Shown here: piece by piece, positions 7,233-13,376 of the stretch | How the letters are laid out: each line of letters starts with the position of its first letter | Numbering within the stretch: the stretch's first letter is position 1 | Assembly (NCBI RefSeq): GCF_001625445.1 | Contig: NZ_LWHG01000011.1 | Location: forward strand, 186,001-250,000 | Length of the DNA stretch: 64,000 nucleotides | Reading direction: 5' to 3' | Source: Haladaptatus sp. R4 | Lineage (GTDB): Archaea; Halobacteriota; Halobacteria; Halobacteriales; Haladaptataceae | The notes under the pieces: model-generated | What the model was told of the DNA's origin: nothing | What the model saw: only the letters and a program-made list of their open reading frames with translations | Databases searched by the model: none | Program-made: the position numbers and the translations under genes

Positions 7233-8984
7233 TTACATCGACTCCGGCGCTTCGATGCCGATGACGCCCAGCGCGTTCGCGATGGTGTGCCTCGCGGCGG
7301 CGACGAGTGCGAGACGGGCGTCCCGAACGTTCTCGTCCTCGGCCGTCAGGACCGGGCATTCCCGGTAGAACGTGTTGAACGTCTCCGCGAACTCGCGGGT
7401 GTAGGTGGCGACGGCGTGGGGTTCCAGGTCCTCGGCGGCCTCCTCGATGACGTGCGGGAAGCGCGCGATGACCTCGATGAGTTCTTCCTCAGACTCCGAA
7501 TCGAGGATGGACGGGTCGATTTCCGCTGGAATTTCGCCTCCAGCCTCGTCGATGATCCCGCAACAGCGCGCGTGGACGTACTGGACGTACGGGGCGCTCT
7601 GGGCTTCGAAGTCCAAGGCGCGCTCCCATTCGAACGTGATGGTCTTCGTGGGTTGTTTCGAGATGATGTCGTAGCGAACCGCGCCGATGCCGACCTGTCG
7701 GGCGATGCGGTCGATGTCGGCTTGGGTGAGGTCGTCGTCGCGGATGCGGTCGTCCATGCGATTCTCTACTTCCTCGCGGGCGCGTTTCTCTGCCTCGTCG
7801 AGCAGGTCGTCCATATCGACGCCGGTTCCTTTCCTGGTGCTCATCCCACCCTCGGGGAGGTTGACCCACGAGAAGTGGAACGTGGTCAGTTTGTCGGTGT
7901 CGTTGCCGAGGATTTCGAGCGCTTGGGCGAGTTGATCGGCCTGTAGCTTGTGGTCCTCCCCGACGACCGTCACGGCGCGGTCGTAGTTGTCGAGTTTCCA
8001 CTCGTGGTGGGCCAGGTCGCGGGTCGTGTAGAGGCTGGTCCCGTCCGAGCGCAGGAAGACGAGGTTCTTCTCGAAGCCGAACTCGGAGAGGTCGAGTTGC
8101 CACGCCTCGTTCTCGTAGACGGCGTGTTCCGTCTCCTTCAGACGGGATACCACGTCGTCGGTGCTCCCGTCGAACATGAACCGCGTTTCCTTGACGAACT
8201 CGTCGAACTCGGCGGGAAGGCGATCCAGCGTGACGCACATTCCCGAGAGGACGGTATCGACCACTTCGCTGATGCGCTCGTACGTCGCCTCGTCGTGCTC
8301 TTCGAGACCCTGCAAAATCGACGCGATCTCCGTTTCGGCTTCGTCGACGTCCCCCGGGTCCGCCTCTTCGAGGTAGGCGTTGCCCTTGCGGTAGTAGCGC
8401 ACGAGGTCGTAGTCGGCGCGCTCGCGCTCGGGGCTCGGCAGGTCCTCCTCGTCGAACGTCTCGTAGGCCCACGTGAACACCGCGATCTGGCGGCCCGCGT
8501 CGTTGACGTAGTAGTGCCGGTCCACGTCGTTGCCCGCGAAATCCAGAATTCGGGCGATGGCGTCCCCGGTGATCGGGTTGCGCGCGCGGCCGACGTGCAC
8601 CGGACCGGTCGGGTTGGCGCTGGTGTGCTCGACCACGACGCTCTCGCCGGTCGGTTCGAGGCGACCGTACTCGTCGTCCTGTGCCGTCTCGACCGTCTCG
8701 TCGTAGTAGGCTCGGCTCGGCAGGAAGTTGACGTACGGTCCTTGACCGACGGCGGCAGCGATGTGGTCGTAGCCGTCGACGTCGATTTCGTCCGCGATGT
8801 CGGCCGCGATTTTCGGTGGCGGTGCGCCGACCTCTCCGGCGAGTCGGAACGCCGCGCTCGAAGCGAGGACGGCGTCCACACCCTCCGGGGGTGTCTCGAT
8901 TCCGAGGTCGTCAGTCGGAAGGTCGAGGCTAGAGAGTGCCGCGAGAAGGGCGTCCTCGACTTCTTCCCTGAACGTCAGGAACAT
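7233..8984 (-). CDS. argS: Arginyl-tRNA synthetase
   Basis: Class I synthetase that charges tRNA-Arg. 583 residues, full length. The HIGH-type motif is in [15 protein letters not shown]; the C-terminal active-site loop is [12 protein letters not shown] in place of KMSKS; and the anticodon-binding domain ends with the conserved LGIEAPESM-type terminus. The N-terminal tRNA-recognition domain (residues about 1-100) contains the typical VNFLPS segment. A TTTACT box on the minus strand about 27 bases before the ATG indicates a leaderless transcript. Confidence 0.96.
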
Positions 8985-9058: not shown

Positions 9059-9415
9059 TCACACCAAACTACGAAGGACGATCTCGATACCCGCGAAAAG
9101 GCAGAGCAACAGGAGAATGACGGGAGTAATGACGATGAATCCCGGGTAGAACCCCTCGACTTCCGTTCCGTCGTCTCCCCGTATCAACGCCTCAGCGACG
9201 ATCACGACCAGCGCTATCGTCGGCAGAAAGAGGCCGAATCGCAACAGCAGATACGTCGGCAGCACCGTCAGCATGAAATACGCGACCCACACGACCAACA
9301 ATCCTCGTACCGACCCATTGGTCGTCCTCGTCGCGTGAAACGTACCGACGATTCCGACGAGTACCGAGAACAGTACCGCCGTGACCGCCGGTGGATAATT
9401 GCCCATCGGAACCAT
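9059..9415 (-). CDS. Small hypothetical membrane protein
   Basis: 118 residues, four hydrophobic segments (about residues 9-25, 38-58, 62-80 and 93-113), a short acidic loop between the third and fourth. A second in-frame ATG at 9406 is equally possible as start. No family recognised. It lies between argS and the TatC-like gene and may belong to neither transcription unit. Confidence 0.6.
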   Translation of the reverse strand: MVPMGNYPPAVTAVLFSVLVGIVGTFHATRTTNGSVRGLLVVWVAYFMLTVLPTYLLLRFGLFLPTIALVVIVAEALIRGDDGTEVEGFYPGFIVITPVILLLLCLFAGIEIVLRSLV

Positions 9416-9481: not shown

Positions 9482-11356
9482 TCACGTCGTCACGACACGC
9501 ATCAACCGGCTACCGAGTGAATTCAGCCACAGCACGGTCAACCCGACGCCGTACGCGACCATGATCGCCAGACCGATGAACAGCATCAACAGTAGCCCAC
9601 CCGGAAGCATGGCCGTGAGGACCAGCACGCCGATGGTGACCTCCCGCCACCGCCTCCGCATCGTCCGGTAGGGGACGACGTTTCCGTGATGGAACAACAG
9701 CATCGTCACCGGAATTTCGGCCAGCAGGCCGACGCCCGCGGTCAGCGCGAACACGAGCCAGAAGAACGCGCCCGTTCGGTAGGCGATTATCATGTCCGCC
9801 GCGTGTGCGTCCGCGACGAGGTAGGAGATGACCACCGGCGCGACGTACCCGTAGCCGACGAGACTTCCGCCGAGGAATCCCACCGCCAACGCGGCCCCCC
9901 ACAGCAGAAACACGTCGCGGTCGGCGCGAGCCTCGAACCGGGATTCGACCGCGGGCCACGCGTAGTACAGCACCATCGGGAGCACCGCGAGCGCCCCGGC
10001 GATGAAGCTCACCTTCATCTCGAACGCGAGCGCCTCGACCGGATGCAGGAGGACGATACGCAACGCTTCCGGGTTCACACCGGCCGGAAGCCGCGTCAGG
10101 AAATCACGCTTTATGGCGCCGATACCGCCCCCGTAGAGGAACGTGAACGTCAGTCCGACGACGGCCATGAACACCGCCGCGACGTGGAACGATTTACTCC
10201 GCAGACTCCCGAGGATGAACCTGATATCGTAGTAGTAGCCGCCGATGTCCTCCTCGGTCGTCCCGTCCTCGGCGAACACCGACGCCATCCGGGATGCGGT
10301 CCCCTCGACTGCTGTAGTCAGCCCATCCTTCTCGTCGCTCGTCCCCTCGGTACTCACTTCGTCGCCAGCGGATTCTCCGTCGCTAGCCGATTCGTCGTCG
10401 GACGATTCCACGCTTCCCGCATCCTTCCCGTCGAACCGGTCGAGGATGGCCGCCGCTCGCTCGTGGTCTCCCTCATCGAGGGCGTCGTCCGCTAATTTCA
10501 GCGCTTCGTGTTCGGTGAGCGATTCGAAGGCTTCGGCTGGCGCGGCGCGAATCCCAGCGGCGTCGAGTCCCCCGAGGTCGAGTTCCACGGGACGGCCGAA
10601 GTCGCCGCTCCGGTTTCCCGTTCTTTTCGTAACTAGCCGCGCACAGCCAACCCCGACGAAGTACAACGTCGTCATCGGAATCGCCACGAGCGACATGGAA
10701 AACGGGTCGGGCGACCCGTTCACCATCGAACTGAGAACGACGATGCCGAAGACCGCGTACCGCCAGCGGTTCCGCAGCAGGTCGTAGGAGACGATATCGG
10801 CGTACACCAACCCACCCATGATCAGCGGCAGCTCGGCCGTCAGTCCCAACACAACCGTCAACAGGAGGACGAACTGCGTCCAATCCACGATGGAGTATGT
10901 CGGCTGAAACCCGGCCTGAATCGCGTTGTTCACGAGGAAATCGAACAGCAACGGGAGGAAAACGAGGTAGGCGTAGGCCACACCCCCGAGGAACAAAACC
11001 ACTGCCAACGCGCCCACGAGAATTCGGGTTCGCCTCGTACCCGGTAGAGGAACCGATTCCCCACGCTCACTGTGGCGGGTCCGATAGACGACGAACAGCG
11101 CCGCGAGTAGCCCCCCCACGATGAGGCCGAGTTTCCCCTGGAGGAGGACGACGTCGAACGGCGTTACCGCGACGATTATCGCCTTCGACTCCAGCAGTCG
11201 CCGCTCCAGTGCGGGCCATATCCAGTACCGAAGCGCGTAGAACGTCGTCAGAAACCCGGCGACGAAGACGACGAACGCGACCCGTAGCTCCGAGCGTACC
11301 CGCCGAAGCGCGATACCCGCCACTCCCATCAGTCGATTGTATCCAGTTGCCCCCAC
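9482..11356 (-). CDS. tatC2: Double-module TatC protein (TatCt-like twin-arginine translocase subunit)
   Basis: Membrane component of the Sec-independent Tat pathway, which exports folded proteins. The 624 residues hold two TatC modules joined by an acidic linker (about 270-360), the arrangement known as TatCt in haloarchaea. Both modules keep the conserved Glu-Leu/Ile-Pro of the fourth helix (LTAELPLIM and LLAEIPVTM). The first keeps SPDPFS after the fifth helix, equivalent to bacterial TPPDVFSQ. The protein is shorter and more divergent than I expect for the main TatCt, so it may be a specialised paralogue. No TatA or TatCo gene is near. A start at 11329 (MGVAGIALRR) is an alternative. It follows the propeller/kinase gene by 79 bases in the same direction. 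Confidence 0.85.
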   Translation of the reverse strand: MGATGYNRLMGVAGIALRRVRSELRVAFVVFVAGFLTTFYALRYWIWPALERRLLESKAIIVAVTPFDVVLLQGKLGLIVGGLLAALFVVYRTRHSERGESVPLPGTRRTRILVGALAVVLFLGGVAYAYLVFLPLLFDFLVNNAIQAGFQPTYSIVDWTQFVLLLTVVLGLTAELPLIMGGLVYADIVSYDLLRNRWRYAVFGIVVLSSMVNGSPDPFSMSLVAIPMTTLYFVGVGCARLVTKRTGNRSGDFGRPVELDLGGLDAAGIRAAPAEAFESLTEHEALKLADDALDEGDHERAAAILDRFDGKDAGSVESSDDESASDGESAGDEVSTEGTSDEKDGLTTAVEGTASRMASVFAEDGTTEEDIGGYYYDIRFILGSLRSKSFHVAAVFMAVVGLTFTFLYGGGIGAIKRDFLTRLPAGVNPEALRIVLLHPVEALAFEMKVSFIAGALAVLPMVLYYAWPAVESRFEARADRDVFLLWGAALAVGFLGGSLVGYGYVAPVVISYLVADAHAADMIIAYRTGAFFWLVFALTAGVGLLAEIPVTMLLFHHGNVVPYRTMRRRWREVTIGVLVLTAMLPGGLLLMLFIGLAIMVAYGVGLTVLWLNSLGSRLMRVVTT

Positions 11357-11435
11357 GCAAATCTCCCCCCGCAGTCCCAGTCGTACTATCGTCTCGCATA
11401 ACTATCAACTTTGCTCGCAATCGCCGGACGGGCCG

Positions 11436-13376
11436 TCAGTTGCTCCGCATCGTCCAACGAAGCATGTCCGCGAATTCCAGCGCCGACTCGTAGCGCTCGT
11501 CGGGGTTCGAGGCAGTCGCCGTTTCGAGCACGTTCGCGAGCGGTTCAGATATCTCTGCGTCGTTTCGGGTCAGTAGCGACTCGGCAATGTTTCCGAGTCG
11601 AGAAACGATCTCTTCGTCGCTCACGCCCTCCGATTCGTCGGTTCCGGTAAATCTCCAATTCGTGACCGTGACGTCCGAATCCACCACGATATTCCCGGCT
11701 GTGAGGTCCTCGTGTCCGACTCCTTCCTTGGACGCTCGATGGACGATTTCCGCCGTTCGAGCGACCGTGGAGACGATATCTCGCTGATCGAACGAGCCGC
11801 CGACTTCCGCCAACGTTCGTCCCTCGACTCGTTCCACTGCGATCCACGGCTCCGGGTCGATACCCCAGTCGTGAACCAACTGTACGCCGTCGAAATCTAT
11901 CCTCGCCCACTCTTCCGCGGCCCGTTCGAAGTCTTCCGGTGCGTCGTGGAATCGCCGGAGGAGAACGCTCTCGCCCTTCGGTGTGTGAGCGAGATGGGTT
12001 TCGTCGTCCAGTCGGTCGCGGAGTTCGTAGCCGTTCCACGTCGGAACGGCGGGTTCGGTTGCCGACTCGCCTTCGTTGTCGTCCCTGCGATACAGATGAT
12101 AGCCGCCACCGAACAGCGCCGCACCGAGGAGTCCGCCGGTCGTCAACCCGAGAGGAGAGACGGCAGTGCGGAGCGTATCGTACAACTGAGACCTTCCGGG
12201 GTCGGTAATCGCTCGTATCTCCCCGGAAACGGTGCTAAAGTACACCGTTTTATTGGAGATGTGGTGGTTCCCTGTCGTCCGAGTCGAGTGGTCGTACTGC
12301 CACCGAACGTGGCCGTCGCGGAGGGAAAGCGCGTAGGTGGTCTCTCTCCCCTCTTCTCTCCCTTTCCTACTGAAGACGATGAGCGAATCCCGCGTCGTTC
12401 CTATCGGAAAGTGGTAGTGGTCGTCGGCGGTCGAAAACTGCCAGCGGTGGCTTCCGTCATCGGTCGAGAACGCGAACAGGCGTTCGTGCGTCCCGACGTA
12501 CAGCGTATTCCCGACCAGACGAAGTCGTCGGTAGGTGTCCGTGCCGATGTCGGCGTGCCAGAGCACGGTCCCGCTCGCCGCAAACAGTGCTCGGAGGGTT
12601 CCTCCATCGGTGAGATATACCGTGTCCCCTCCGATTACGCCGGGAAAATCGTACGTCTGGCTCTTAGAGCGGACCGACCACTGTTTGTTACCAGTATCAG
12701 CATCGACCGCATGGAGGAGCCCCGTTTCGTAATCGGTGGCGAACACGACCCCACCGGCGGACGAACGCGCCAGAATCCTCCTTCCCTCGGAAATGGTAGT
12801 GTTCCAATCGACGATGCCGTTTCGCGTGGAAATCGCGACGAGGCTCCCTTCGTCCGTCCCGGCGTAGACGTGCCCATCACTGGCGTCGGATAGGGAGACC
12901 CACTCACCGTTCGACGGCGTGACTGACCACTTCTCTTCGCCCGCTCCTCGCGAGAGAGCGACGATTGTCTCCCCTCTCGTGATGATCGAGGTCGACAACA
13001 GCGGACCGGTCGGTTTACCGCCGTTTCTGTGCCACCGTTCGCTTCCGTCCGTCGCCGAGAGCGCCGAGACGTTCTCCCCGTCACCGAGATACACCACGTC
13101 GGCCGTCGGAAAGAGGGTCGGAAAGTTTCCTTTCGTTTCGTAGCGCCACCGTTCGTTCCCGTAAATATCGACGGCATGAACGACGTTCTTCGTTTGTGCG
13201 TAGAACGCCCAGCCTACCGTTCTCGTGAGTCGTACGTACTGGTCGCCGAAACCGACGCTCCACACCGTCTTCGCTGTCGGCGCGTACGAACGAACCGGAT
13301 TCGAGAGGTTCCACAGCGGAACGGAGACTCCCGTGTTTCGTATGAATTCACGTCTGGTGGCTGTCCGCCGCTCCAT
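11436..13376 (-). CDS. Tat-signal, PQQ-type beta-propeller, transmembrane, protein-kinase-like receptor protein
   Basis: 646 residues in four parts. (1) The N-terminus contains TRREFIR (residues 7-13), a good twin-arginine motif, though the hydrophobic part that follows is short. (2) Residues about 40-410 are repeats of the type VYLGDGENVSALSATDGSERW, a PQQ-like quinoprotein propeller. (3) A single membrane segment, LTTGGLLGAALFGGGYHLYRR, lies at about 430-455. (4) The C-terminal 190 residues look like a protein kinase: the catalytic loop is HEDLTAGNIVV, keeping the Asp and Asn. The usual DFG is NWR, and the beta-3 Lys is probably Arg (SVLLRRF). The topology would be propeller outside, kinase-like domain inside. 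It may sense an extracellular ligand; activity is doubtful given the missing residues. Confidence 0.85.
   Translation of the reverse strand: MERRTATRREFIRNTGVSVPLWNLSNPVRSYAPTAKTVWSVGFGDQYVRLTRTVGWAFYAQTKNVVHAVDIYGNERWRYETKGNFPTLFPTADVVYLGDGENVSALSATDGSERWHRNGGKPTGPLLSTSIITRGETIVALSRGAGEEKWSVTPSNGEWVSLSDASDGHVYAGTDEGSLVAISTRNGIVDWNTTISEGRRILARSSAGGVVFATDYETGLLHAVDADTGNKQWSVRSKSQTYDFPGVIGGDTVYLTDGGTLRALFAASGTVLWHADIGTDTYRRLRLVGNTLYVGTHERLFAFSTDDGSHRWQFSTADDHYHFPIGTTRDSLIVFSRKGREEGRETTYALSLRDGHVRWQYDHSTRTTGNHHISNKTVYFSTVSGEIRAITDPGRSQLYDTLRTAVSPLGLTTGGLLGAALFGGGYHLYRRDDNEGESATEPAVPTWNGYELRDRLDDETHLAHTPKGESVLLRRFHDAPEDFERAAEEWARIDFDGVQLVHDWGIDPEPWIAVERVEGRTLAEVGGSFDQRDIVSTVARTAEIVHRASKEGVGHEDLTAGNIVVDSDVTVTNWRFTGTDESEGVSDEEIVSRLGNIAESLLTRNDAEISEPLANVLETATASNPDERYESALEFADMLRWTMRSN

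Follow-up and report, generated by a model that had tools for sequence, protein, structure and literature searches.

A probable surface receptor with an exported propeller and a cytosolic pseudokinase, and its independent double TatC neighbour, in Haladaptatus

In the ActPs1 pseudokinases of actinobacteria, a PQQ_2 propeller lies C-terminal to the pseudokinase, from which helix G is often missing (PMC12599244), and kinases with PQQ repeats have been reported in Deinococcus and Streptomyces (PMC1262709). Pseudokinase families have already been reviewed for bacteria and eukaryotes, and no description of an archaeal counterpart, or of a receptor-like archaeal pseudokinase, was found in the searchable literature, which is no proof of absence. 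Kinases of the AfsK and DqkA type place the kinase first and are active. We analysed a stretch of 64,000 nucleotides (the window) from a species of Haladaptatus, a genus to which H. salinisoli and Haladaptatus sp. DYF46 also belong and which shares its family with one other large genus, Halorussus. The best explanation of the locus, to which we give a probability of roughly 0.6, is a single-pass surface receptor with a Tat-exported propeller and a dead cytosolic kinase, lying beside an independent double TatC gene, tatCt2.

Both open reading frames were recovered on the minus strand, where the receptor gene is followed after 79 nt by tatCt2 and, further on, by argS (Table 1). Between tatCt2 and argS sits a 118-aa membrane ORF (9059-9415, minus strand), for which searches of Pfam and NCBIfam gave no match. 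The tatCt2-argS gap in G004, the second genome to carry both receptor and tatCt2, is only ~70 nt, and hence this ORF looks recently inserted.

Table 1. Features of the receptor-tatCt2-argS locus, in window coordinates
Feature	Position	Strand	Evidence
Receptor-like protein, 646 aa, comprising the four parts listed next	11436..13376	-	
Twin-arginine start, residues 1-35	13272..13376	-	Both arginines kept in all 14 aligned proteins; cleavage putative
8-bladed BamB/YxaL-like propeller, residues 36-391	12204..13271	-	Pfam PQQ_2 2.1e-28; AlphaFold; Foldseek BamB 9.1e-24
Putative membrane helix, residues 404-427	12096..12167	-	Model helix 408-427; hydropathy 1.33; weak
Predicted pseudokinase domain, residues 444-646	11439..12047	-	Predicted structure, fold matches, catalytic-residue alignment
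Conserved tatCt2 upstream element, core CGAGSAAVGTTGATR, promoter-like	11382..11418	-	10/10 tatCt2 genomes
tatCt2, extra double TatC, 624 aa	9482..11356	-	PF00902 x2, TIGR01912
argS, syntenic anchor for receptor and tatCt2	7233..8984	-	Pfam tRNA-synt_1d 2.7e-38; synteny, 20 loci

The motifs from which the original prediction had drawn an exported receptor with a kinase-like domain are all present: TRREFIR at residues 7-13, HEDLTAGN at 555-562 and NWR at 573-575. The Tat-type start is borne out by the invariance of its twin arginines across the aligned family, and TRREFIR is followed by 15 uncharged residues (14-28), the end of the signal being placed putatively; in the receptor pseudogene of H. 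salinisoli the twin arginines have decayed to GR. Judged from sequence, export is probably by the general Tat system. The predicted PQQ-type propeller likewise stands, being matched by Pfam and modelled as strands. An AlphaFold model of the full receptor, built with 14 aligned family members (mean pLDDT 81), passes from strands at residues 36-391, with eight G..W blade motifs, through a helix at 408-427 to the kinase-like C-terminal part; the closest propeller folds found by Foldseek are BamB and YxaL (3.2e-18 for the latter), which are not quinoproteins. The proposed single membrane segment is supported as well, but the helix is weak in the window copy, which counts against the receptor reading: its most hydrophobic 19-residue stretch, residues 404-422, averages 1.33 in hydropathy, and pLDDT is below 50 across residues 418-443 of the full-length model. 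Several relatives have a stronger membrane helix at the equivalent place.

The C-terminal part does have the kinase fold that was proposed for it, with a pLDDT of 90.6 when residues 444-646 were folded alone. At the sequence level it is missed by Pfam, which sees only PQQ_2 in the receptor, and is matched weakly by NCBIfam (PknB_PASTA, 2.4e-6); the NCBIfam AfsK match (8.1e-13) covers the propeller part only. The predicted structure resembles Ser/Thr kinases of bacteria and matches Mycobacterium tuberculosis PknA both in Foldseek (6e-11) and in VIA-align (Z 21.5, rmsd 2.5, 202 residues), and by this modelled two-lobed fold the domain is a member of the protein kinase superfamily. The catalytic residues run against a working kinase. 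In the window copy the beta-3 Lys is replaced by R474 and the DFG Asp by N573, with the catalytic Asp, D557, kept. Across 14 aligned family members the first of these positions holds K, R, E, T, A, M or H, the catalytic Asp position D, S, A, R, H or G, and the DFG Asp position N, D, G or E, and the K/D/D triad is complete in none (0/14). The domain also lacks the activation segment and helix G that the intact haloarchaeal kinases L122, L123 and L128 possess. On these residue comparisons the window's domain is a pseudokinase, and the receptor kinase of the original prediction gives way to a receptor pseudokinase; with the triad broken and both elements deleted, HEDLTAGN is a partial survival and no sign of activity.

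For the family as a whole, an active kinase is rejected on the catalytic triad. That the window's own domain might be an active atypical kinase, or another nucleotidyl transferase, gains something from the survival of D557 and N562, which sits awkwardly with a dead domain, from a fold that is complete around the cleft, and from an intact kinase (PF00069, 3.3e-35) in the propeller-first relative L123. Set against the substituted Lys and DFG Asp, the missing activation segment and triad positions of which none is conserved family-wide, we judge such activity improbable, and a pseudokinase is retained below.

The order of the domains, propeller before kinase fold, had been presented as unusual, a claim which does not hold. 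In a survey that was seeded with the receptor family's own domain, and whose counts are therefore biased, propeller-first proteins with an RR start are found across both Haladaptatus and Halorussus, and two other families of haloarchaea have them too; this recurrence rules out an exceptional domain order. Kinase-first haloarchaeal proteins coexist with them (L122, L133 and L135). L123 (family f4; G075:C1, ~1466 kb) is propeller-first with an RR start and a full Pkinase match, its K/D/D residues intact, and could be an active counterpart of the architecture; in its genome, G075, the domain is matched eight times, mostly at clustered positions. The window's own genome encodes a second propeller-first pseudokinase (L065 3757-5955; G000:C11:418 kb), which has kept an APE-like activation segment and lost its catalytic residues.

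The receptor evolves quickly. In Halorussus pairs, NG86 dN/dS is about 0.37-0.58 for both receptor domains, against about 0.1-0.14 for argS, values which point to purifying selection that is weak but present on both domains, with fast evolution below neutrality. Between the window and G004 the cytosolic domain is 60% identical (dS 0.83, NG86 dN/dS about 0.38), and the propeller is 24-28% identical with a saturated dS of ~3.0, where dS is 0.43 for argS and 0.62 for tatCt2. A receptor stub in a third species, G007, matches the start of the window propeller at 51% over 73 aa, versus 29% over 139 aa for G004. The difference points to a replacement of the propeller in G004, and so of the ectodomain in one lineage. 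No donor was found in 28 genomes, the best match being 34%, from Halorussus, and hence replacement and fast divergence both stand as explanations. In Halorussus G014, tandem receptors (L070 7989-9995 and 10856-12868) are near identical at their C-terminal ends and differ in the rest of the domain, which suggests gene conversion by local exchange. A generalisation that we offer tentatively, and hold to be somewhat doubtful, is that haloarchaea possess a family of receptor pseudokinases which Tat exports in folded form and which combine a constant cytosolic output with an ectodomain open to exchange.

Given its repeated loss in Haladaptatus, the receptor gene of the window might also be decaying and non-functional, as in its genus mates. 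The receptor is lost or reduced to a stub in 7/9 Haladaptatus, it diverges fast, and its GC3 of 0.715 is below that of tatCt2 (0.809), which in turn is below that of argS (0.854). Yet the window copy is a full-length open frame with all eight blade motifs, and the identity and dN/dS of its cytosolic domain relative to G004 speak against decay. Decay in the window genome is on this evidence unlikely.

The tempting link between the receptor and the TatC gene was that of a sensor and its dedicated exporter, and it is this link that the comparison removes. Across 28 genomes of the family (9 Haladaptatus, 18 Halorussus and one of another genus), tatCt2 is present in 10, namely 9/9 Haladaptatus and the other genus, with 0/18 in Halorussus. 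The receptor is present in 12/28, of which two are Haladaptatus (2/9) and ten Halorussus (10/18, the receptor pieces of the fragmentary G025 falling below the cut-off). The two genes occur together in 2/28. A Fisher test on this co-occurrence does not reach significance (p = 0.11), and the genomes share ancestry, hence the counts show an absence of linkage and not avoidance. All ten Halorussus carriers have the receptor upstream of argS and in the same orientation, within 200 nt in 7/10, and none of these ten loci has a tatCt2-like gene beside it. Four Haladaptatus genomes retain receptor stubs, all upstream of an intact tatCt2: G003 has a C-terminal stub of 38 residues, G007 keeps both an N-terminal and a C-terminal stub, and the FAD(M/I)LRW tail is left in G001 and, as a weak case, in G008. 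The conserved adjacency looked for thus holds in that both genes adjoin argS, and fails in that they are seldom together. On the favoured reading, the receptor adjoins tatCt2 because both settled beside argS, and not because one exports the other.

The region upstream of tatCt2 carries a mark of its own. The 15-base CGAGSAAVGTTGATR lies upstream of the gene in 10/10 carrier genomes, whether the receptor is present or absent. The pattern was derived from the ten upstream sequences and must therefore occur in them, so that the test lies in its rarity elsewhere: each carrier genome has a single site, apart from H. salinisoli with two, and none was found in 18 Halorussus genomes. A scan for bacterial-type promoters gave no match, as expected for an archaeal host. 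In several species the tail of the otherwise decayed receptor gene (FADMLRW) persists directly before tatCt2 (corresponding to 11357-11438 in the window), and perhaps survives only because it borders the conserved element.

As to tatCt2 itself, the predicted double TatC is confirmed by PF00902 (7e-61, two stretches) and TIGR01912, with a GTG putatively taken as its start codon. The canonical divergent tatCo/tatCt pair lies elsewhere in the genome (G000:C11:375-379 kb), which has one tatCo only and two tatA genes, both on other contigs. In the tree tatCt2 forms a separate clade (support 1.000) with G010 basal, apart from the canonical TatCt sequences of the three genera, and it has no adjoining tatCo partner, so that it is not an orthologue of canonical TatCt; such a clade, with G010 at its base, indicates that tatCt2 is old in the family. 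The branching inside it mirrors that of the canonical gene, as vertical inheritance predicts. The TatC glutamates E15 and E103 (E. coli numbering), which we take to bind signal peptides, are kept in TatCo and missing from both halves of TatCt and tatCt2, as far as the alignment allows. By this residue pattern tatCt2 is a TatCt-like subunit and no signal-peptide receptor in its own right. A third double TatC is found on another contig in two Haladaptatus genomes (L096, G001:C2; L099, G003:C24), in a separate clade near canonical TatCt and with no tatCo ORF called alongside. A literature search found nothing relevant on TatC paralogues in Haladaptatus.

A functional unit of receptor and dedicated exporter would fit the shared strand and the 79 nt spacing, found in both the window and G004, and the stubs, which show the adjacency to be ancestral in Haladaptatus. 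Several observations oppose it. Firstly, each gene usually occurs without the other, and tatCt2 stays intact after receptor loss. Secondly, tatCt2 resembles TatCt in lacking the signal-binding glutamates. Thirdly, it has its own upstream element. Fourthly, there is a single tatCo and no tatA nearby. Phyletic pattern, synteny, upstream element and residue comparison together led us to reject the dedicated exporter, which we consider scarcely credible. What the comparison defines instead is an extra TatCt lineage, whose role is testable independently of the receptor.

Under the favoured reading of a surface receptor beside an independent tatCt2, the general Tat pathway would send the eight-bladed propeller out folded, and one membrane helix would hold it in an N-out/C-in topology, the C-terminal domain staying inside as a kinase fold that computed structure and residue loss predict to be catalytically dead. 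Outside, the propeller may bind a ligand or a partner protein, and this binding could change the protein contact of the pseudokinase inside, an allosteric or scaffold output without phosphorylation. tatCt2 would be an independent, vertically inherited TatCt-type subunit under its own upstream element. A Tat-exported single-pass receptor poses the question of how a folded propeller is passed across and the helix then released together with a cytosolic domain of 200 residues.

Set beside the known systems, tatCt2 shares with haloarchaeal TatCt the two fused TatC domains and the absence of the same glutamates, but differs from the canonical protein in its second clade, its lack of an adjoining tatCo and its length, ~120 aa shorter. 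The receptor has a propeller fold in common with BamB and YxaL, whose propellers are free-standing and untethered to a kinase fold. With the AfsK- and DqkA-type Ser/Thr kinases of Streptomyces and Deinococcus it shares the combination of kinase fold and PQQ-repeat propeller, but it is propeller-first and, as predicted from its residues, catalytically dead. It is like ActPs1 in joining a kinase fold without catalytic residues to a PQQ_2 propeller in one chain, and in the loss of helix G; however, the propeller of the actinobacterial proteins is C-terminal, whereas that of the receptor is N-terminal, following a twin-arginine start in an archaeal host. The receptor is a mirror image of the bacterial ActPs1 pseudokinases, and its relatives are apparently a haloarchaeal pseudokinase family new to description.
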